From Caldicellulosiruptor hydrothermalis 108 (lineage in GTDB: Bacteria; Bacillota; Thermoanaerobacteria; Caldicellulosiruptorales; Caldicellulosiruptoraceae), in the NCBI RefSeq assembly GCF_000166355.1, contig NC_014652.1, forward strand, positions 2,144,928 to 2,208,927: 64,000 bases of DNA, in the 5' to 3' direction. Both the position numbers and the translations under genes were made by a program. A model generated the notes under the pieces. The model saw only the letters and a program-made list of their open reading frames with translations, ran no database searches and was not told the DNA's origin. The number at the start of each line of letters is the position of its first letter. Within the stretch, counting starts at the first letter, position 1. Positions 48,423-63,860 of this stretch are shown here, in pieces.

Positions 48423-50648
48423 TCAAGCATTGTTCACAAAATTCTTCTTCCTTTTTGCCAGTGCCTCTCTTATCTCAAACGTAACATCTCTATTTAAAGG
48501 TTCTGGCAGAATGATAAAAACACCATCTCCCTTTTTTGCCTTCTTTATGCCTTCAGACACCATCTCAACCACATCTGAAAACTTTTCTATCTGCTTACAT
48601 ATAATTTTACTTCTGTCCTCTATAAAGTCCAGAATTTGTTCTTGCCTTTTTTCACATACAAAATAAAGATTTTTTATTCCTATTGAGCTGAGGCTCAAAG
48701 CAAGAATTTTCATATGTTCCTTCTTATTAAGGCTGTCAATAATTACTTTTACACCATTTATATCAAATATATTAAATTTTCCTGGATTTTGATGTGAATC
48801 GTTCTTGTACTCAGTCAAAAATTTATATATAATCTCACTGTCAACACCGTAAAAATACAGTGCTGCAATTGTCTGGAGAATATTGTCAACTGCAAACATA
48901 AGCTTGCCTTCGTATGAGTACGGAATTTCCCTGACGTTGCAAAGCGAAAAAACCTGCTGACCATCGAAAATCTTCACAACATCATTCTCAAGATACACAC
49001 AGGGTCTTTTCATCTCTATATGAGCCTTTAAATCTGGATGATGATTTGAAATAGATGTAAATACAATCTTACATCTGGCTTTTGCACTGTATAGGTATTT
49101 ATAAGCATCGTTGATGTTCAAAATTAGATATCCATTTTCCTTAATACTTCTGGAAAACAAAAGGTTTCTTTCTATCTGATTTTGAGAAAATGTATTGGTA
49201 ATAATGCCTACATCGGGTTCTATTTCTATCTCCTCAATACATTTTTCTGGATTGAATTCAACAAGTTTTATGTCCGACAAGTCCCCAAAATTTCTTAGAT
49301 AGAAATTTTCTATTTCACTATCAATGGATGTTTCCAAACCGCATCTTTGTAAAATGTACCTCATTATTTGCAAAATTGTGCTTTTCCCATACGTCCCTGA
49401 CACAGCAATTATCGGCACAGTTGGATTTGGCATCTTTTCAAAATACACATCCAAAATAGTATTGAAAATATCGCAGTTGCATGTCTGTGAAAATATACGA
49501 AGGTCGCAACTTGTCTCAACATCAACAACATATCCTCCTACAACCGAATATGGCAGGGAAATATCTTCTGTAACAAAGTCTAAGATGGTCACTACATATC
49601 CAAACTTTTCTGCAATCTTAATAAAAAGTTGTTGGTTTTCGTATGCTACCTTTTCTGTAACATCTGTGGTTATACATCCTGTTTTAAAACTAGTCGGTTC
49701 CTTTAAAAAAACCTTCATTCCCTTGGGCAAAATATCGTCCAAGGTAAATCCCTGTTTTAAAATATTCTTTTGAATATATTTATTATTTCTCTCACCTTGG
49801 TCTAAAAGTTCTGAAATTCTTCTCTTACCATCGCCTACAATGTATGGAGAGGTTCTTTCAACAGCTGCCACAACTTTCCCATTTACAACCAGGATTTTAT
49901 AGCTTTTACCCGGCACGTATCTTTCAACAATCACTCTGCTATCCAGGCTTTTTACCATATCAAATGCTTCCAATGCCTGTTGATTTGTTCTGATATTCCC
50001 TATATTTGGAGAGTCTTTTCTGCAGCCTTTTATCGAAATTGGAAATCCCAGCTTTTTTATGCCGTCCATCAGCTGGTCAGAAGTAAAGACCACATCAAAC
50101 GGCACAACAGGAAAAGAGTTGAGTTTTAAAAACCTTCGCTGGAGTTCTCTGTCGCTTGACAGACTAACTCTGCTAAAGTCATGCTCACTTATAATGGAAG
50201 CAAAAAGCTTTGCATACTTTCCCTCTCCCAGCATGAATGTATCTGTATATCCAATCCTTGTAAACCTTATACCTCTTTTCATACAGGCATTTTTCAAAAG
50301 TCTTGTATTTGGCGAAAGCTCTGTCTCAATTGTGAGCTTTTTTAACTTTGAAATCTTGTCAGGAAAATGTTCAGGTTCAAACCCTTTTTCTATGCACTCT
50401 AAAGCAAACTCTATGACCTTGTGTACAAGCATTTGATTGTCATGTTCAATCAAAACATCAATATGATCTTCCACGCTCAAGCATTCCCAGTATTCAACCA
50501 AGTTGTATCCTATAAGGTTTTGAATATGGATGCAAAGCTTTGCAAAGTTTCTTGCCTCTTCAATGTCTCCTTTTACCTTTAATACCACAACTTTTTTGTC
50601 TGAGTAAATATTTTTGTGATTGTACACCTTCATACTTTCAATCTTCAT
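48423..50648 (-). CDS. Cyanophycin-synthetase-like ATP-grasp/Mur ligase
   Basis: 741 residues. Residues 1-155 form a CphA-type N-terminal region; about 160-410 is an ATP-grasp domain (FPVVPFDVVF, FPISIKGCRKDSPNIG, VERYVPGKSYKILVVNGKVVAAVER); about 430-740 is a Mur-ligase domain with P-loop SGTYGKST, in which Tyr replaces the usual Asn. Cyanophycin synthetase builds an Asp/Arg storage polymer; this form is shorter than the 870-900 residue classical enzyme and lies without a cyanophycinase. Function as a peptide ligase is probable; the polymer is uncertain. Confidence 0.75.
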   Translation of the reverse strand: MKIESMKVYNHKNIYSDKKVVVLKVKGDIEEARNFAKLCIHIQNLIGYNLVEYWECLSVEDHIDVLIEHDNQMLVHKVIEFALECIEKGFEPEHFPDKISKLKKLTIETELSPNTRLLKNACMKRGIRFTRIGYTDTFMLGEGKYAKLFASIISEHDFSRVSLSSDRELQRRFLKLNSFPVVPFDVVFTSDQLMDGIKKLGFPISIKGCRKDSPNIGNIRTNQQALEAFDMVKSLDSRVIVERYVPGKSYKILVVNGKVVAAVERTSPYIVGDGKRRISELLDQGERNNKYIQKNILKQGFTLDDILPKGMKVFLKEPTSFKTGCITTDVTEKVAYENQQLFIKIAEKFGYVVTILDFVTEDISLPYSVVGGYVVDVETSCDLRIFSQTCNCDIFNTILDVYFEKMPNPTVPIIAVSGTYGKSTILQIMRYILQRCGLETSIDSEIENFYLRNFGDLSDIKLVEFNPEKCIEEIEIEPDVGIITNTFSQNQIERNLLFSRSIKENGYLILNINDAYKYLYSAKARCKIVFTSISNHHPDLKAHIEMKRPCVYLENDVVKIFDGQQVFSLCNVREIPYSYEGKLMFAVDNILQTIAALYFYGVDSEIIYKFLTEYKNDSHQNPGKFNIFDINGVKVIIDSLNKKEHMKILALSLSSIGIKNLYFVCEKRQEQILDFIEDRSKIICKQIEKFSDVVEMVSEGIKKAKKGDGVFIILPEPLNRDVTFEIREALAKRKKNFVNNA

Positions 50649-55947: not shown

Positions 55948-56937
55948 TCACAATTCCAATCTTTTTACATATTCTTCAAGCTCACAATACGCTTCAAAAT
56001 TCAGTTTTTTCCCAAGCTCCTCTTTTATCTGAATAAGATCAAGAATCAAGATTTCAAATAAAGCTATGCCTGTTCTCTCACCCACGCCCCTGATACAGCA
56101 ATTTGCAGTTGATGCTCCAAACAGCCATGCACATACTGCGTTTGCCTGGGCTTTATAAAAATCATTGTGACCGTGCCACTCAAGTCTTTGATGGGAAAGA
56201 CCGCAATGTAGCCGCAGGACGTTTATAAGCCTTGGAACACCTCGGGGCAAACTTGCATACTCGTAGGGAACACCCAATCCCAATGTGTCACAAAGTTTAT
56301 AACGAATCTCTATCCCTGTGTTTTTTGTTTTACTTTCAATTAACATAATAAAAGGTATCACAAAGTTTTGGATATCAGCCCTTGTAATATCCTCAATGTG
56401 AATTCTTGGTTTTAAGTTTAAAGCCAGAGCTTCTTCAATTATATCTATATACTCTTTTACAACTTCATACCTTGTCTTGCCAAACTTTTTGTAAATATGA
56501 TAGTCTGATGCTGGCATCAAAATTCCAACCTCATCAAGCCCCAACTCTTTTGCAATCTTTAGCTCTTCCTTTTTAGCTCTCACCCACCCCACCACCCGTG
56601 GAAATTTGAATCCTTTCTTTAAACACTTTTCAACGCATCGTCTGTGATAGTTTGTATAAAGGAAAAATTCTGAGTATTCTATTGTTCCGGTTTCGTTATC
56701 TATATAATGGAAATATTCAAAAATTCTTTCCACGTTATCTTCTCCTATATACGAAATTGCTTGCTGACCTTCTCTGAATGTGCTATCTGAAATGCAAAGA
56801 GTTTCTGGAATATCTAAAGGAACGGGTGTATCTTCAAAAGGTATCTTTGGTATTGAGGTGTACGGAAATATATCTTTAAAATAATTTGGTGCGTTCTTTG
56901 ATAGAACTTCATATTCCTCATTTTCAATTTTGAGCAT
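55948..56937 (-). CDS. HMGL-type condensing enzyme, Re-citrate synthase-like; possible homocitrate/citrate supplier
   Basis: 329 residues from the second ATG (GAGGAG nine bases before it). Metal and active-site motifs of the pyruvate-carboxyltransferase family: ISDSTFREGQQ, HIEDITRAD, EWHGHNDFYKA and GVGERTG. Several blocks recall Re-citrate synthase more than NifV: TIEYSEFFLYT, VVGWVRA, GILMPASDYHIYKKFGKTR, CDTLGLGVPYEYASLPRGVP. It ends about 100 residues earlier than the usual Re-citrate synthase. It follows modB by 30 bases, so it is the last nif-operon gene, and could make homocitrate or citrate. Confidence 0.7.
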   Translation of the reverse strand: MLKIENEEYEVLSKNAPNYFKDIFPYTSIPKIPFEDTPVPLDIPETLCISDSTFREGQQAISYIGEDNVERIFEYFHYIDNETGTIEYSEFFLYTNYHRRCVEKCLKKGFKFPRVVGWVRAKKEELKIAKELGLDEVGILMPASDYHIYKKFGKTRYEVVKEYIDIIEEALALNLKPRIHIEDITRADIQNFVIPFIMLIESKTKNTGIEIRYKLCDTLGLGVPYEYASLPRGVPRLINVLRLHCGLSHQRLEWHGHNDFYKAQANAVCAWLFGASTANCCIRGVGERTGIALFEILILDLIQIKEELGKKLNFEAYCELEEYVKRLEL

Positions 56938-56966
56938 TGTTCCCATCTCCTCTAACTTTTTGAACT

Positions 56967-57755
56967 TTAATAATCAACATTGTTCAAAAGTTTTTTGGTA
57001 ATATAAAGTAGAAGGTATGAGATGGCTATCATAATAAAGCTTACACAGTAAACTTCATCCTGATTTTGAGCATAAAGTTTATAAATATAAAGAGAAACTG
57101 TTTGAGTTTTGCCGTAAACATTCCCCGCAAAAACAACTGTTGCTCCAAACTCACCAAGCGCTCGTGAGAAGGTCCCAAGTATCCCTATCACAATCCCTTT
57201 TTTGCAAACAGGCAAATACACTTTAAACAAAAGCCCCAGTTCATCCAATCCTAAGATGTACCCTTCTTCTTTGAGCTGTCTATCCACTGCTAAAAATGAA
57301 GTATATGAGACTTTTAAATAATATCCCATCGAAACAAATAGCTGGGCAAGGACAACCGCAGATGTAGTAAATGGAATCTCAAAACCAATTTTGCTCAAAT
57401 ACCTGCCTAAAAACCCCATCCTTCCATAAAGTAAAAGAAGTAAAACTCCTGTTACAATTGGTGGTAGAACATTTGGTAAATCAATTAAAATCTCCAGTAA
57501 TTCATTTTTCCTTCTCAAAGATGAAAGTAAATAGGCAAATGGTGTGCACAGAAAAAATGCCAAAACAGAGCAAATCATAGCTGTAAAAAATGAAAGACCA
57601 AATGCAGTCATGGTCTCTTTTTTTGTTATAGCATTTATTAGTGTAGTATATGGTACAACAAAAATAAGATTTATAAAAGGTAAGAGCAAAAACAGCAAAA
57701 ACGGTACTGATAAAAAGAATATCTTTTTCATATCAAGCTCACACACTTTTTGCAT
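56967..57755 (-). CDS. modB: Molybdate ABC transporter permease
   Basis: 262 residues with about six membrane segments. The EAA loop reads GTFSRALGEFGATVVFAGN as in ModB/CysW-type permeases. The start is uncertain: ATG at 57755 lacks a clear ribosome-binding site; an ATG 24 bases later (MKKIFF) is also possible. Modest gap to modA. No modC ATPase is in the window. Confidence 0.88.
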   Translation of the reverse strand: MQKVCELDMKKIFFLSVPFLLFLLLPFINLIFVVPYTTLINAITKKETMTAFGLSFFTAMICSVLAFFLCTPFAYLLSSLRRKNELLEILIDLPNVLPPIVTGVLLLLLYGRMGFLGRYLSKIGFEIPFTTSAVVLAQLFVSMGYYLKVSYTSFLAVDRQLKEEGYILGLDELGLLFKVYLPVCKKGIVIGILGTFSRALGEFGATVVFAGNVYGKTQTVSLYIYKLYAQNQDEVYCVSFIMIAISYLLLYITKKLLNNVDY

Positions 57756-57772
57756 TATTTAAAAAAGACCAA

Positions 57773-58558
57773 TCATTCATACCCCTTTTCTTTTAAGAGC
57801 TTTGCAATGGTTTTGGTCTTAATAAAAGCCATAAAATCTTTTGCAAGCTTTGGATTTTTAGCTTTCTCTATAGCTGCAACATAGTGGCTTGCAACTATAT
57901 TATACTTTTCTGGAATGTTTATTATCTTGAGCTTTGTAAGTTTTGCATCAGTAAAATAAACAATCCCAGCGTCAGCTTCACCAACCTTTACTTTTTGAAT
58001 TACATCAGTGAGCTCAAACTCCTGCGAAATAATGTTGGCTATTATACCGCTGTAAAGACTCTTGTTATCATTTTTTATCTTGTCAATTACCATCTTTGTA
58101 TACATGCCAATGGGAGACACAGGATCAGCTATACAAAGCCTTATCCCCTTTTTTGAAATATCCTCAAACTTTTTTATGCTTGGGGAACTTGATATTACAG
58201 ATAGTTTTGTTTTGGCAAAAATTTCGTATTTATCTATATATTTGGCCTTTTTTAGGCTATCAATATACCTTCTGTCTGCTGAAAAAAATACATCACACCT
58301 TGCTCCATTTTTTAACTGTGTAACAAGCACGTGTGTTCCTGCAACATTGAGAACAACTTTACATGATTTTTGTTTTTCGAACTGTTTAGAAATGTCTTTT
58401 ACAATACTTTCCAACGTATTAGGTACAAAAACAATCAAACTTTCTTTTTTGGTTTTATCTTTGCTAAAAGATACATTAGAAACTGTTGAGAATAAAAAAG
58501 ATGCTATTATAAAAAAATAGACACATCGCATCTTAAAAATAAAAAGTTTTTTTATCAT
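57773..58558 (-). CDS. modA: Molybdate-binding protein
   Basis: 261 residues from the ATG at 58558 (AGGAAG nine bases before it); an earlier ATG at 58585 lies before that site. Signal sequence (CVYFFIIASFLFSTVS), then the ModA fold: VFVPNTLESIVKDISKQFE, GARCDVFFSADRRYID, IADPVSPIGMYTKM, GEADAGIVYFTDA. Delivers molybdate to ModB. No lipobox Cys is seen. The location inside the nif operon fits supply of Mo for nitrogenase. Confidence 0.9.
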   Translation of the reverse strand: MIKKLFIFKMRCVYFFIIASFLFSTVSNVSFSKDKTKKESLIVFVPNTLESIVKDISKQFEKQKSCKVVLNVAGTHVLVTQLKNGARCDVFFSADRRYIDSLKKAKYIDKYEIFAKTKLSVISSSPSIKKFEDISKKGIRLCIADPVSPIGMYTKMVIDKIKNDNKSLYSGIIANIISQEFELTDVIQKVKVGEADAGIVYFTDAKLTKLKIINIPEKYNIVASHYVAAIEKAKNPKLAKDFMAFIKTKTIAKLLKEKGYE

Positions 58559-58604
58559 TTCCTGCATCTTCCTTTCATCTTGCAAAATGCATGACCAGCT
58601 TACT

Positions 58605-58931
58605 TTACATAAAAAGCTCTACAATCTCTTTTAAAGCATCTTTTATAAACCCTTGTCTTTCCAAGACAATTTTGTCTGAAAGTTTTTCCAAGGCACAAAG
58701 CCCAATTCTATTTGCTACAATTACATCACAGTCTTTTAGCATATCCACTCTCTTTTCCATCCTCTGCTCATTAGAACAATCTTCTTTCCAGTCATCAAAT
58801 TCTCTAACACATATGAGTTCACAGCTCCCATCGCTGAAAAGATCAACTATTAGAAAATTTTCGCTATTCCCAAAATGTCTATTTACAAGTCTTCCATCGC
58901 TTGTTGCAATTGCCACTCTCTTTTTCTTCAT
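58605..58931 (-). CDS. NifX/NifB-C-terminal-like FeMo-cofactor carrier
   Basis: 108 residues. N-terminal RVAIATSDGRLVNRHFGNSENFLIVD is the hallmark of the NifX/NafY/NifB-C family, which binds NifB-co or FeMo-co during cofactor assembly. CDVIVANRIGLCALEKL near 70 is the second block. Starts 21 bases after nifB; no NifB C-terminal fusion is present, so this is the separate carrier. Annotated nifX in many genomes. Confidence 0.88.
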   Translation of the reverse strand: MKKKRVAIATSDGRLVNRHFGNSENFLIVDLFSDGSCELICVREFDDWKEDCSNEQRMEKRVDMLKDCDVIVANRIGLCALEKLSDKIVLERQGFIKDALKEIVELFM

Positions 58932-58952: not shown

Positions 58953-59753
58953 TCACACAAGCAATCCTGCTTCATCCGACCTGCACTGTCTGCAATGGGT
59001 CACAAGCTGAATTATTTTACTACACTTTTCTCTTACTTGAGCAAGAACACTACAAGAGGGTTTTTCAATATCAGAAAATTTTGCATATGGTATGATCGGC
59101 ATTATATTCATCACCTTAGCACCAAGTTCTTTGACTCTTGCAGCAATCTCTTCAATGTGATGGCTATTTATTCCAGGTATCAAAACTGTATTTACCTTCA
59201 CCACAAGTCCAAGCTTGGATGCTTTGTAGATACCATGTTGCTGTTTATGGACAATAAGCTCAGCCGCCTCTTTGCCAAAATATAGTAGTTCGTTGTACAT
59301 GGCAAATTCATAAATGTTCTGAGCAATATTGCTATCTACTGCGTTGACTGTGACTGTCACATATTTGACATTATAATTTAAAAGTACTTCCGCCAAATCT
59401 TCTAATAAAAGTCCATTTGTGCTTATACAAAACTCTGCTTGAGTATCATAATTTCTTATAAGCTCAAACGTTTCAAATGTTTCTTGATTGAAGAGAGGAT
59501 CGCCAGGTCCAGAAATTCCTACTATCTTTATAGTTTGGTCTTTGCTTGTGATATCCTTGTACCTTAAAAGCGCCTCTTGAGGAGTTAACACTTTTGAGCA
59601 TGCGCCAGGGTGAGAATCGTTTATGCATGAGATGTTCCTGTCACAGTAATTACATTTGATATTGCAAGACTTTGCAACAGGAAGATGTATTCTGCCAATT
59701 TTATATATAACATCTTTGTTGAAACACGGATGACCCAGCAGTCTACTTTCCAT
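58953..59753 (-). CDS. nifB: NifB, nitrogenase cofactor radical-SAM enzyme
   Basis: 266 residues, core-only NifB without the NifX-like tail. HPCF at residue 8-11, radical-SAM cluster CxxxCxxC at Cys30, 34 and 37 (SCNIKCNYC), GISGPGDPLFN, and the C-terminal CRQCRSDEAG. It builds the 8Fe core NifB-co with a central carbide from two 4Fe clusters and SAM. GGAGGT is nine bases before the ATG. It is one base after nifE. Confidence 0.96.
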   Translation of the reverse strand: MESRLLGHPCFNKDVIYKIGRIHLPVAKSCNIKCNYCDRNISCINDSHPGACSKVLTPQEALLRYKDITSKDQTIKIVGISGPGDPLFNQETFETFELIRNYDTQAEFCISTNGLLLEDLAEVLLNYNVKYVTVTVNAVDSNIAQNIYEFAMYNELLYFGKEAAELIVHKQQHGIYKASKLGLVVKVNTVLIPGINSHHIEEIAARVKELGAKVMNIMPIIPYAKFSDIEKPSCSVLAQVREKCSKIIQLVTHCRQCRSDEAGLLV

Positions 59754-59754
59754 C

Positions 59755-61044
59755 TCAAATCAACCTCCATACAGGTGAGAGTATTTCTTTGTACAAATCC
59801 TCACACATGTTTAAAAAACCTTCAAAACATGCATATGGTTTTGTCTCCTGAGGAAGTACCAAAAAGGGTACTCCAAACTTGTGTGCAAGATACCATTCCC
59901 TTGTTCCGCCAATAAATACATCAGGTTTTATCCTCAAGAGAATCTCCTCTATTTCTGCACAGTTAAAATCATCTATAAAAAGTGCAGAAGGAAGCTCAAA
60001 CCGTGCAGCCTCATAATCGATATTGCATCCAAACTGACTTCCACATACACAAATTTCAAGTCCTGCTTCTTTAAATGCACCAGTCATAAAACCTATCCTT
60101 GAACCTCCAAGAAGAATAACCGCTTTTTTGCCAAAAATCTTCTTTTTATACTTCTCAAGCTTATCTTTTATTTTTTCATACTCTTCCGAAATGACCATCT
60201 CTACTTTATGTTCAATACCAAAAAATTTAGAAATCCTTTTAAGGCAATTTATAGTATTGCTAAGTCCATAGAAGGAAACATCCACAAAAGGAATAGAGTA
60301 TTTTTCTCTCATAAACTGAGCAAGTAAAAGTCCAGAGCTTTTACAAACAAGCAAGTTAAGCGCTGCAGATGTGCTTTCTTGCATAAGGTCTGCATCACAA
60401 TTACCTGTATAGCTACATATAACCTTTATTCCTATCTTTTCTAACAGTTTTTTTACAACTATCGTCTCTCCTGCCACATTGTACTCCCCAATTATGTTTA
60501 CAGAAAATGGCTGTGTACTTTCTTTTCTGCAATACTCTGAAAGATAACTTATAATAGCCCTCTGGGCTATGTGGTGCCCGTCTGACTGAGAAAACCCTCC
60601 AAACCCAGGAACCTCAACAGGAATGATAGGTTTTTGTACTTTTTCTTTTACCCTTTCTACAACCCACTTTATGTCTTCTCCAATCTGAGAAGATGTGCAT
60701 GTAGAATATACGAATATCATACTGTGTTCAGGAAAGATTTTTGCTGCTTCTTCAATACACCTTTCAAGCTTTTCATGCGCACCAAAAATAACATCCTTTT
60801 CATTCATATCAGTTGAGAGTATTAAATAATTCTTCTTCCTTACATTCTGACCATAATATGCACAGTCAGCAGGTGCGTGCACAATGTGAGTTGAATTTCT
60901 TACAGGGGCAAGAACCCAGCGCGCCCCATAATAGGTACAAGCGCGCTGGGACATCACACCTGGAATTGTTGGTCTTGAACACTGAGGTATTCCACTCTGT
61001 ACAATGTGCCCCTGTCTTTGCTCCAAAAAAGCTTTTATAGCCAT
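59755..61044 (-). CDS. nifE: NifE-like cofactor scaffold subunit
   Basis: 429 residues of the nitrogenase component 1 family. Cluster cysteines Cys36 (QRACTYYG), Cys61 (ADCAYYG) and Cys116 (STCTSSQIGED) are present. The cofactor Cys site is kept (LNLLVCKSSG), but the His ligand region reads PQETKPY without His, as expected for a scaffold and not a catalytic subunit. NifE with NifN matures FeMo-co. No nifN follows: nifB begins one base downstream. Starts 25 bases after nifK. Confidence 0.9.
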   Translation of the reverse strand: MAIKAFLEQRQGHIVQSGIPQCSRPTIPGVMSQRACTYYGARWVLAPVRNSTHIVHAPADCAYYGQNVRKKNYLILSTDMNEKDVIFGAHEKLERCIEEAAKIFPEHSMIFVYSTCTSSQIGEDIKWVVERVKEKVQKPIIPVEVPGFGGFSQSDGHHIAQRAIISYLSEYCRKESTQPFSVNIIGEYNVAGETIVVKKLLEKIGIKVICSYTGNCDADLMQESTSAALNLLVCKSSGLLLAQFMREKYSIPFVDVSFYGLSNTINCLKRISKFFGIEHKVEMVISEEYEKIKDKLEKYKKKIFGKKAVILLGGSRIGFMTGAFKEAGLEICVCGSQFGCNIDYEAARFELPSALFIDDFNCAEIEEILLRIKPDVFIGGTREWYLAHKFGVPFLVLPQETKPYACFEGFLNMCEDLYKEILSPVWRLI

Positions 61045-61069: not shown

Positions 61070-62449
61070 TTACTGGTGAAGTTTATCATGCGGATAAGAA
61101 TAGTCCAAGATTGTATTTACAATCAAATCCAAAAGCCAGATACTTCCTTTATACCCTGTTATTCCATATCTGAAATATCCAACCCTGTCGTATACAGGGA
61201 AGCCTATTCTCACAACAGGGCATTTTACTGATTTTGCAACTTCAACTGCTTTTGAGTTGCCAAGTATGACTTCAACCCCTGCCTCTTTTGCTAAGTATTC
61301 AAATTCATAAAGGTCGCTGTCTACAAGAATTTCACCTTCAATGTTATACTCATCAAAGATTTTCTTTATCTCATCGGCAAAGGTAGGAGAAGGCGTTGCT
61401 GTCTCCACCACCTTTACATCCATCCCAAGTTCACACAAAAACCTGGTAACAGCTATTACAATGTCAGGGTCGCCAAACACAGCTGCCCTTCTCATCATTG
61501 TATACTGGCAAGTATCTGCCATAGCATCTAAAAGAAGACCTCTTTCAACTTTGACTTCCTCTGGAATTTCAATTCCGCAGACTAAAGCAACATTTTCAAT
61601 AAACTTATCTGTATTTTCTACTCCAACCGGGAACGGACCAAGGATACTTTTTACACCAAACTCACTTTCCAAATAACTTGCACCAGACCCACCTGCATGA
61701 GGACAAAGAGCTAAGACGGCTTTACCGTTTGCACAGTCTTCAAGCTCCTGCCATGGCGTGCCACCTTCTGGATAGAGCGGTTTTGGAGGCATCAGTGGTG
61801 AGTTTAAGGTTTTTGAAATATCAAATAAAACTGAGTATTCTATACCCATTAAATTTAGAAGATATTTTACCTCTTCGATGTCGCCGGGATTAATCATTCC
61901 TGGAATAATATATAGTTTTTGGTTTGGTTCTTTTGATTTTGCAAAGTACTTAATATACGAAATTGTTGCTGTGTCATAGCCTTTGACATGTGTTCCTGCA
62001 TAACTTGGTGTATGAATTGGCACAACAAACACGCTTTGTGCAACCTCATCACCCAGTTCTTCTCTCACCTTTTTATATGCCTCTTTTATAAAAGCTTCTA
62101 TATCGTCTCCTATGGTTTCGCTTGAACATGTTGTAACAACACCTATCACCTTTGGCGCATATCTAAAAATAAGATTTCTTATTCCCTCTATAAGATTTCT
62201 TCTTCCGCCAAACACAGCCGCATCTTCGTGGAAAGATGTCACTGCAATGTTCACAGGTTCTTTGAAGTGCCTGTTGAACTGGTATCGAACATAAGTGCAG
62301 CATCCTTGAGAACCTTGAACAAGGGGCACTGCCTTGTCAATACCAAGCGTTGCATACATTGCACCAATTGGTTGACACATCTTTGGAGGATTTATGGTAA
62401 CATGCCTGTTTGCTTTCGTAATTAGCGGACTGCTAAGTTTTGTTGCCAT
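61070..62449 (-). CDS. nifK: Nitrogenase MoFe protein beta subunit
   Basis: 459 residues; the ATG at 62449 has GGAGGTG nine bases before it and overlaps the end of nifD. P-cluster cysteines Cys25 (PKMCQPIGA), Cys50 (GSQGCCTYVR) and Cys108 (TTCSSETIGDD). It lacks the N-terminal extension of about 50 residues of proteobacterial NifK, a short form typical of clostridial and archaeal enzymes. It pairs with NifD. Confidence 0.96.
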   Translation of the reverse strand: MATKLSSPLITKANRHVTINPPKMCQPIGAMYATLGIDKAVPLVQGSQGCCTYVRYQFNRHFKEPVNIAVTSFHEDAAVFGGRRNLIEGIRNLIFRYAPKVIGVVTTCSSETIGDDIEAFIKEAYKKVREELGDEVAQSVFVVPIHTPSYAGTHVKGYDTATISYIKYFAKSKEPNQKLYIIPGMINPGDIEEVKYLLNLMGIEYSVLFDISKTLNSPLMPPKPLYPEGGTPWQELEDCANGKAVLALCPHAGGSGASYLESEFGVKSILGPFPVGVENTDKFIENVALVCGIEIPEEVKVERGLLLDAMADTCQYTMMRRAAVFGDPDIVIAVTRFLCELGMDVKVVETATPSPTFADEIKKIFDEYNIEGEILVDSDLYEFEYLAKEAGVEVILGNSKAVEVAKSVKCPVVRIGFPVYDRVGYFRYGITGYKGSIWLLDLIVNTILDYSYPHDKLHQ

Positions 62450-63816
62450 TGTGATGCCCACCTCCTGTCAACAAATTTCCAAACTGGAGCATAGAGTGAC
62501 TTGTAAAGGTCTCTTGCAAAATTGACCAAACCTTCAAAAGCTACATATGGCCCATTTTCGTAAGAATGTGAGTTCAAAGATGGAACACCAATCTTGTGTG
62601 CAAGGTATTTCTCTTTCAATCCTGTGAGGAATATATCGGGTTTGTACTTTTCTATAACCTCTTCAAGCTCAAGCTCGTTAGGATTATCGATCACCAAAAC
62701 TCCATCGTCTGCTTTTGCGTTTATCTTTTCATAATCATCCTCATGCCCAAATGTTGTAGCACATGCAACAACTTCTATCCCAAGGTCACGCATTAGCGGT
62801 ATCCAGTGCCAGACTCTCGGTGCTCCAACGTAAATCATTGCACGCTTGCCACGAAGCTTTTCTCTGAAAAACTCAAGCCTTGGCATAATACTTTCGAGCT
62901 CTTCTTCAATCACTTCTTCCACCTTTTTCTCAATTCCAAAAAACTTTCCTATCTCCCTAAGGGAATTAATTGTTTCGGTAATTCCAAAAAGTGTTACCCT
63001 GATAAATGGCGTGCCGTACTTTTCTTTCATAAGCCTTGCAATGTATGTTGCTGACCTCTGGCAGTGGACAATGTTGAGCTTTGCATAGTGCATCTTGCAC
63101 AGATTATCATAAGAAGCGTTTCCAGTAAATGCTGTTATAATCCTCAAGCCAATCTTTGTGAATAGCTTCTCAAGCACCCAATAATCTCCATCAATGTTGT
63201 ACTCGCCTATAATATTAACGTCATACGGTGTTGGGTCTTCAAGTTCTTTTGTCCCAACAATCTTTTCAAAGATTGTGTGATTTGCGATATGATGACCTTT
63301 AGACTGCGACACCCCGCAAAAACCCGGTGAATTGAATGCAATGACTGGTTTTCCTATTGCTTTTGAAGCTTTTTTGGCAACAGCTTCTAAATCATCACCA
63401 ATTAGGGCAGTTGGACATGTTGCATATATAAATACCGCTTTGGCTTCAGGAAACTGCTGGTTTGCTTCAATTATTGCATTGTAAAGCTTCTTTTCCCCAC
63501 CGAAAACTATGTCTTTTTCTTGCATGTCAGTTGAAAAGCAATACTTTCTATGAAATTCACTATCGGATAGGTGTCTTCGTGATGACCACGTATAATATGC
63601 ACAGCCAATTGGCCCATGGACTATCTGAATTACATCTTTAACAGGTCCTCCAACAACACCTCTTGCTCCTGCAAATGCACAACCACGCTCTGTCATGTCA
63701 CCCGGGATGGTTCTTACATTGCACACAGGTACAACAGGATTGTTCCTGTCAGTTATATATGTGTGTTTTCCTCTTTCTTCAATGCACTTGTCACAGTCTA
63801 AAGTCACAAATGGCAT
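62422..63816 (-). CDS. nifD: Nitrogenase catalytic alpha subunit (NifD, basal type)
   Basis: 464 residues from the ATG at 63816 (GGGAGGT eight bases before it). P-cluster Cys46, Cys72 and Cys134; cofactor ligands Cys252 (LNIVHCQRSA) and His417 (LNSHSYENGPY); cofactor-pocket Gly53-Val54, Arg80, Gln171 and His175 are present. Thus a catalytic subunit of a nitrogenase, not a scaffold. The pocket is mixed: GV, HC and Q/H as in Mo enzymes, but GAPRVWHW (331-338) as in V/Fe enzymes. There is no VnfG/AnfG delta gene between nifD and nifK. First gene of this operon segment; nifH is not in the window. Confidence 0.95.
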   Translation of the reverse strand: MPFVTLDCDKCIEERGKHTYITDRNNPVVPVCNVRTIPGDMTERGCAFAGARGVVGGPVKDVIQIVHGPIGCAYYTWSSRRHLSDSEFHRKYCFSTDMQEKDIVFGGEKKLYNAIIEANQQFPEAKAVFIYATCPTALIGDDLEAVAKKASKAIGKPVIAFNSPGFCGVSQSKGHHIANHTIFEKIVGTKELEDPTPYDVNIIGEYNIDGDYWVLEKLFTKIGLRIITAFTGNASYDNLCKMHYAKLNIVHCQRSATYIARLMKEKYGTPFIRVTLFGITETINSLREIGKFFGIEKKVEEVIEEELESIMPRLEFFREKLRGKRAMIYVGAPRVWHWIPLMRDLGIEVVACATTFGHEDDYEKINAKADDGVLVIDNPNELELEEVIEKYKPDIFLTGLKEKYLAHKIGVPSLNSHSYENGPYVAFEGLVNFARDLYKSLYAPVWKFVDRRWASQWQQNLAVR

Positions 63817-63860
63817 AACTGTCAACCTCCCTTGTATAATTATTTTTAGCCTTTTGCAAA

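Follow-up and report, generated by a model that had tools for sequence, protein, structure and literature searches.

The window analysed here, a 64,000-nt stretch of the Caldicellulosiruptor hydrothermalis 108 genome (GCF_000166355.1, NC_014652.1, positions 2144928-2208927), carries a nitrogen fixation (nif) operon with the scaffold gene nifE, and its usual companion nifN is truly absent from the genome. Comparison of related operons gives about an even chance that NifE pairs with a β subunit of NifK type, which in Caldicellulosiruptor would be NifK itself. The comparison centres on a second NifK-like gene, here termed K', which lies between nifK and nifE in some relatives. A wider form of the proposal is put forward somewhat more tentatively: in the clade known as F-Mc, the specific stand-in for NifN would be a NifK-derived K', freed from the catalytic constraints on NifK and kin to the sole NifK of Caldicellulosiruptor, which would serve both the catalytic and the scaffold complexes.

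The presence of nifE without nifN, noticed in a first-pass annotation of the window, is a correct observation that has already been published. Thermophiles lacking nifN and having a distinct NifD group C were described first (Dos Santos 2012, PMC3464626), and the clade was later named F-Mc, with a homodimer or homotetramer of NifE proposed (Garcia 2020, PMC7216921). N2-dependent growth and acetylene reduction were reported for three strains, YA01, C. hydrothermalis 108 and C. kronotskyensis 2002, together with the lack of nifN and the proposals of NifK in the place of NifN or of NifE acting alone (Chen 2021, PMC8209448); the same options were listed in a study of Methanocaldococcus sp. FS406-22 (Lie 2022, PMC8809328). 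The NifDK protein of Roseiflexus, in turn, can mature the iron-molybdenum cofactor (FeMo-co) without NifE and NifN (Paya-Tormo 2024, PMC11573651). Because a NifE homomer, a NifE-NifK complex, a nifN gene located elsewhere and self-maturation by NifDK have all been discussed in print, the finding is not new as such. Added here are the selection acting on NifE and the residues of its cofactor pocket, at least 19 genomes with NifD, NifK and NifE only, and the K' genes.

No nifN was found in the window, in agreement with the first-pass annotation, and its description of nifB adjoining nifE with no place for a further gene is accurate, the TGA of nifE and the ATG of nifB being one base apart. A six-frame search of the whole genome (single contig of 2,770,676 bp, completeness 99.99%) with PF00148 produced three matches only, NifD, NifK and NifE. 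The NifN model TIGR01285, searched genome-wide to an E-value of 10, matched nothing but NifK, at 257 bits against a cut-off of 326.8, and, weakly, part of NifE. The suggestion that nifN may lie elsewhere, for which a genome-wide search for a NifN homologue had been advised, is excluded for this genome since nothing beyond NifD, NifK and NifE was recovered by PF00148. The published annotation of the genus is likewise without nifN (PMC8209448), and a divergent nifN hidden in the same genome is hardly conceivable at the sensitivity of the two profiles. A nifN-nifB fusion of the Clostridium kind was also rejected, as NifB consists of a 266-amino-acid radical-SAM core. The genome thus lacks the nifN gene of a canonical NifEN maturase, and has the group C / F-Mc gene set, with nifH, nifD, nifK, nifE and nifB present and nifN absent. 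NifD of the window is of the same type, with Gln276 (C-Q after the cofactor cysteine), a gap at position 444 and no aromatic residue there; this and other F-Mc NifD have Asn at the position printed as Asp440 in PMC3464626, possibly by an offset in the alignment.

The NifE protein scored 292.8 bits with PF00148 (cut-off 28.6) and 347 bits with TIGR01283, below the equivalog cut-off of 505.1, and higher (384) with TIGR01862. The TIGR01283 cut-off is a naming threshold rather than a functional feature, and the F-Mc type as a whole seems to fall below it. The three cluster cysteines and the cofactor cysteine recognised in the first-pass annotation are indeed in place, and are kept in 22 of the 22 F-Mc NifE compared. 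The reported lack of the histidine ligand is also real, with Pro398 at the position of His442 in NifD. Judged from the alignments, this is ordinary for NifE and not peculiar to this genome, because the residue at the site is Asn in each of the 13 canonical NifE and Pro in each of the 22 F-Mc NifE. The equivalents of Gln191, His195 and Arg359 were kept in 20-21 of the 22 F-Mc proteins and lost in almost all canonical NifE, leaving F-Mc NifE with a NifD-like cofactor pocket. Purifying selection on nifE was evident from omega (ratio of nonsynonymous to synonymous substitution rates) of 0.11-0.14, with rates similar to those of NifB, and a pseudogene was rejected on the same values. The predicted structure (predicted local distance difference test, pLDDT, 84; predicted template modelling score, pTM, 0.84) matched NifD chains in the PDB with template modelling (TM) scores up to 0.88. 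In the best tree, F-Mc NifE joined canonical NifE, with support of 96/94 for the split of all NifE from all NifD; the alternative tree placing F-Mc NifE with F-Mc NifD was not rejected in the approximately unbiased (AU) test (p = 0.088). In several relatives (L105, L108, L112, L113, L120 and L069), NifE carries a C-terminal NifX-like extension, which in the window is encoded by a separate gene.

Within the family sample (n=13 genomes), exactly three PF00148 proteins were present in eight Caldicellulosiruptor genomes, and NifE of one genome of the genus was 95% identical to that of the window. A ninth genome (G004) has a nifK interrupted by a frameshift or an in-frame stop codon (L083 10884-12295), and three others have no PF00148 proteins. 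The remaining genome, from another genus (G012), has the canonical nif genes, with NifN and NifB fused (L080 13479-15761), and the family is therefore not uniform in nif type. In the phylum sample (n=398 genomes), F-Mc NifE was found in 16 genomes outside Caldicellulosiruptor. Named relatives, from a separate search, included Moorella, Carboxydothermus, Desulfofundulus, Desulforudis, Desulfovirgula and others. Exactly NifD, NifK and NifE were recovered from 11 further genomes that were searched again, which raises the genomes restricted to these three proteins to at least 19 in total. Nearly every complete F-Mc operon found contains nifE.

Four related operons from two phyla have the gene order nifD-nifK-K'-nifE (Table 1), a small sample in which at least two operons are from metagenome-assembled genomes (MAGs). 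No description of K' genes was found in the literature searched. In the NifK/K' tree (38 rows), K' formed one clade with the sole NifK of Caldicellulosiruptor and the NifK of L110 (support 94/97), and the K' operons' own NifK grouped with the Moorella type (100/99). The AU test rejected a placement of K' with Moorella-type NifK at p = 0.006, and did so at p < 1e-40 for the short-branched K'. At the sites invariant in F-Mc NifK (n=96), K' altered 8 to 39, and other NifK, jackknifed with each left out, 0 to 9. The K' adjoining nifE in L069 and L108 had 14 and 13 sites altered at ~50% identity, compared with 3 to 5 in Caldicellulosiruptor NifK, and in one K' the third P-cluster cysteine is replaced by Ser. 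An apparent K'-NifE fusion in MAG-1144 was rejected, as the 1016-amino-acid open frame holds three stop codons. Position, descent and constraint together suggest that K' is a stand-in for NifN, a β subunit dedicated to NifE. Because it shares ancestry with K', the sole NifK of Caldicellulosiruptor would be a good candidate for both jobs.

On this basis, the operon would provide a functional molybdenum nitrogenase whose cofactor is made by a shortened pathway. NifB would make the iron-sulfur-carbon precursor, which may be carried by the small NifX-like protein to NifE. As a true scaffold subunit, NifE would take up the precursor through Cys234, molybdenum and homocitrate would be added with NifH, and NifE, having no histidine ligand, could then release the cofactor. 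NifK would double for NifN, as the partner of NifD in catalysis and of NifE in assembly. Pairing with NifK, one of the options listed in the first-pass annotation, is the best supported of them through the comparative K' evidence; the existence and stoichiometry of a NifE-NifK complex, and the identity of the finished cofactor as FeMo-co, are inferred.

Several observations weigh against such pairing. Adjacency and shared ancestry are an indirect basis for it, and most F-Mc genomes are without K'. The K' of Ammonifex is ~5 kb away from nifE, and in two genomes of the Ammonifex genus group K' stands as an orphan near glnK/amt (L195 3871-5205, L196 9327-10727); neither genome yielded any further component-1 protein. 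K' may have another role in this group, since it is distant from nifE or orphaned in genomes without nif genes, and the latter weakens the case for Ammonifex K' as a NifE partner. An AlphaFold model of NifK and NifE of the relative L103, with the stop read through (8 rows), was uninformative (pTM 0.49). In addition, slow growth on N2 persisted in a Methanocaldococcus FS406-22 strain deprived of hp4 and of the ribosome-binding site of nifE (PMC8809328), so NifE may not be essential.

The last observation leads to the main rival explanation, by which cofactor maturation takes place on NifDK itself, as in Roseiflexus, and NifE needs no β partner, being an accessory for storage, delivery or efficiency. 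The ability of Roseiflexus NifDK to do without NifE and NifN (PMC11573651) makes this rival serious, and the deletion affecting nifE in FS406-22 left the strain only partly deficient (PMC8809328). However, the Roseiflexus type belongs to a different clade that is entirely without nifE, whereas here nifE is present, evolves under purifying selection at rates like those of NifB, and is missing from hardly any of the complete F-Mc operons found. Self-maturation would also leave K' beside nifE unexplained, and on balance we consider it unlikely, though deserving attention.

K' also bears on the proposal of a homodimeric or homotetrameric NifE as an ancestral stage of the scaffold (PMC7216921, repeated in PMC8209448). 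The three cysteines needed for an iron-sulfur cluster at the dimer interface are present, but K' genes adjoining nifE would be superfluous to a homomer, and the best tree points to a loss of NifN rather than to a stage preceding it, even if an F-Mc-specific origin of NifE was not rejected by the AU test; a homomer appears rather improbable. Less probable again is a NifE partner unrelated to NifN and NifK, such as an analogue of methanogen Hp4 or a NifX-like protein. In FS406-22, the hp4 gene accompanies nifE and its product aids diazotrophy, and NifE of several relatives is extended by a NifX-like domain. Against this, Hp4 homologues have been reported from thermophilic methanogens only (PMC8809328), NifX is a carrier in known systems, and no unrelated gene is located here between nifK and nifE or between nifE and nifB.

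The minus-strand order of the operon in the window is nifD, nifK, nifE, nifB, the nifX-like gene, modA, modB and the nifV-like gene (Table 1).

Table 1. Genes of the nif operon in the window, and related operons in which K' is located between nifK and nifE.
Feature	Location	Strand	Description
nifD	62422-63825	minus	467 amino acids, group C / F-Mc type; C275-Q276, H442, Q191 and H195 equivalents present
nifK	61070-62461	minus	463 amino acids; sole β subunit of the genome; P-cluster Cys 29, 54, 112
nifE	59755-61044	minus	429 amino acids; stop TGA (59757-59755); Cys36, Cys61, Cys116 (cluster), Cys234 (cofactor); Pro398 at His442 position; Gln153, His157, Arg316 as in NifD
nifE-nifB spacer	59754	minus	one base, G; no room for nifN
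nifB	58953-59753	minus	266 amino acids; start ATG 59753-59751; radical-SAM core only, without NifX-like C-terminal domain
nifX-like gene	58605-58931	minus	108 amino acids; stand-alone NifX/NifB-C-terminal domain
modA, molybdate-binding protein	57773-58585	minus	
modB, molybdate permease	56967-57755	minus	
nifV-like, homocitrate synthase family	55948-56946	minus	97.5 bits to TIGR02660, cut-off 462.9
D-K-K'-E operon	L069 (G014)		
D-K-K'-E operon	L108 (= G437)		Desulforadius tongensis DSM 29799
D-K-K'-E operon	L112 (= G438)		Desulfotomaculum MAG-1144
D-K-K'-E operon	L149		Thermodesulfovibrionales MAG-1293, another phylum; nifE interrupted

The modA and modB genes (56967-58585) are part of the operon, with no modC adjoining. 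A few kb downstream of the operon, at 48423-50648, lies a cyanophycin-synthetase-like gene of 741 amino acids (325 bits to TIGR02068, cut-off 850), possibly with a role in nitrogen storage. Past the end of the window, nifH, nifI1 and nifI2 are followed by glnK and amt.

Assembly of FeMo-co without NifN is a question of interest, and a smaller gene set would be useful for moving nitrogen fixation into crops. K' offers a natural test, as its co-purification with NifE would make a NifK-type partner probable across the clade; the genomes restricted to NifD, NifK and NifE, this one included, would then represent a minimal two-in-one arrangement.

The closest known system is the published nifHDKEB cluster of Caldicellulosiruptor (PMC8209448), from the same genus, with the same gene set and likewise without nifN, so that gene content does not differ. 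In contrast to that cluster, nifHI1I2 is split here from nifDKEB by a 3.8-kb insertion with two transposase genes (L004 4754-8582, starting at window position 63826), present in this genome only; in five other Caldicellulosiruptor, a gap of 27 to 31 bp lies between nifI2 and nifD. The nifHDKE genes of Methanocaldococcus sp. FS406-22 (PMC8809328) are also of group C / F-Mc, with nifE and without nifN in a diazotroph, and differ by nifB outside the cluster, by the additional hp1 to hp4 and ferredoxin genes, and in that nifE and hp4 form an operon of their own. Roseiflexus nifHBDK (PMC11573651) resembles the system in making FeMo-co without NifEN, but is without nifE and belongs to another clade (Clfx). 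With canonical NifEN, NifE of the window shares the fold, the three cluster cysteines, the cofactor cysteine and the absence of His442, whereas it is without NifN, has Pro instead of Asn at the His442 site, and has kept the equivalents of Gln191, His195 and Arg359.
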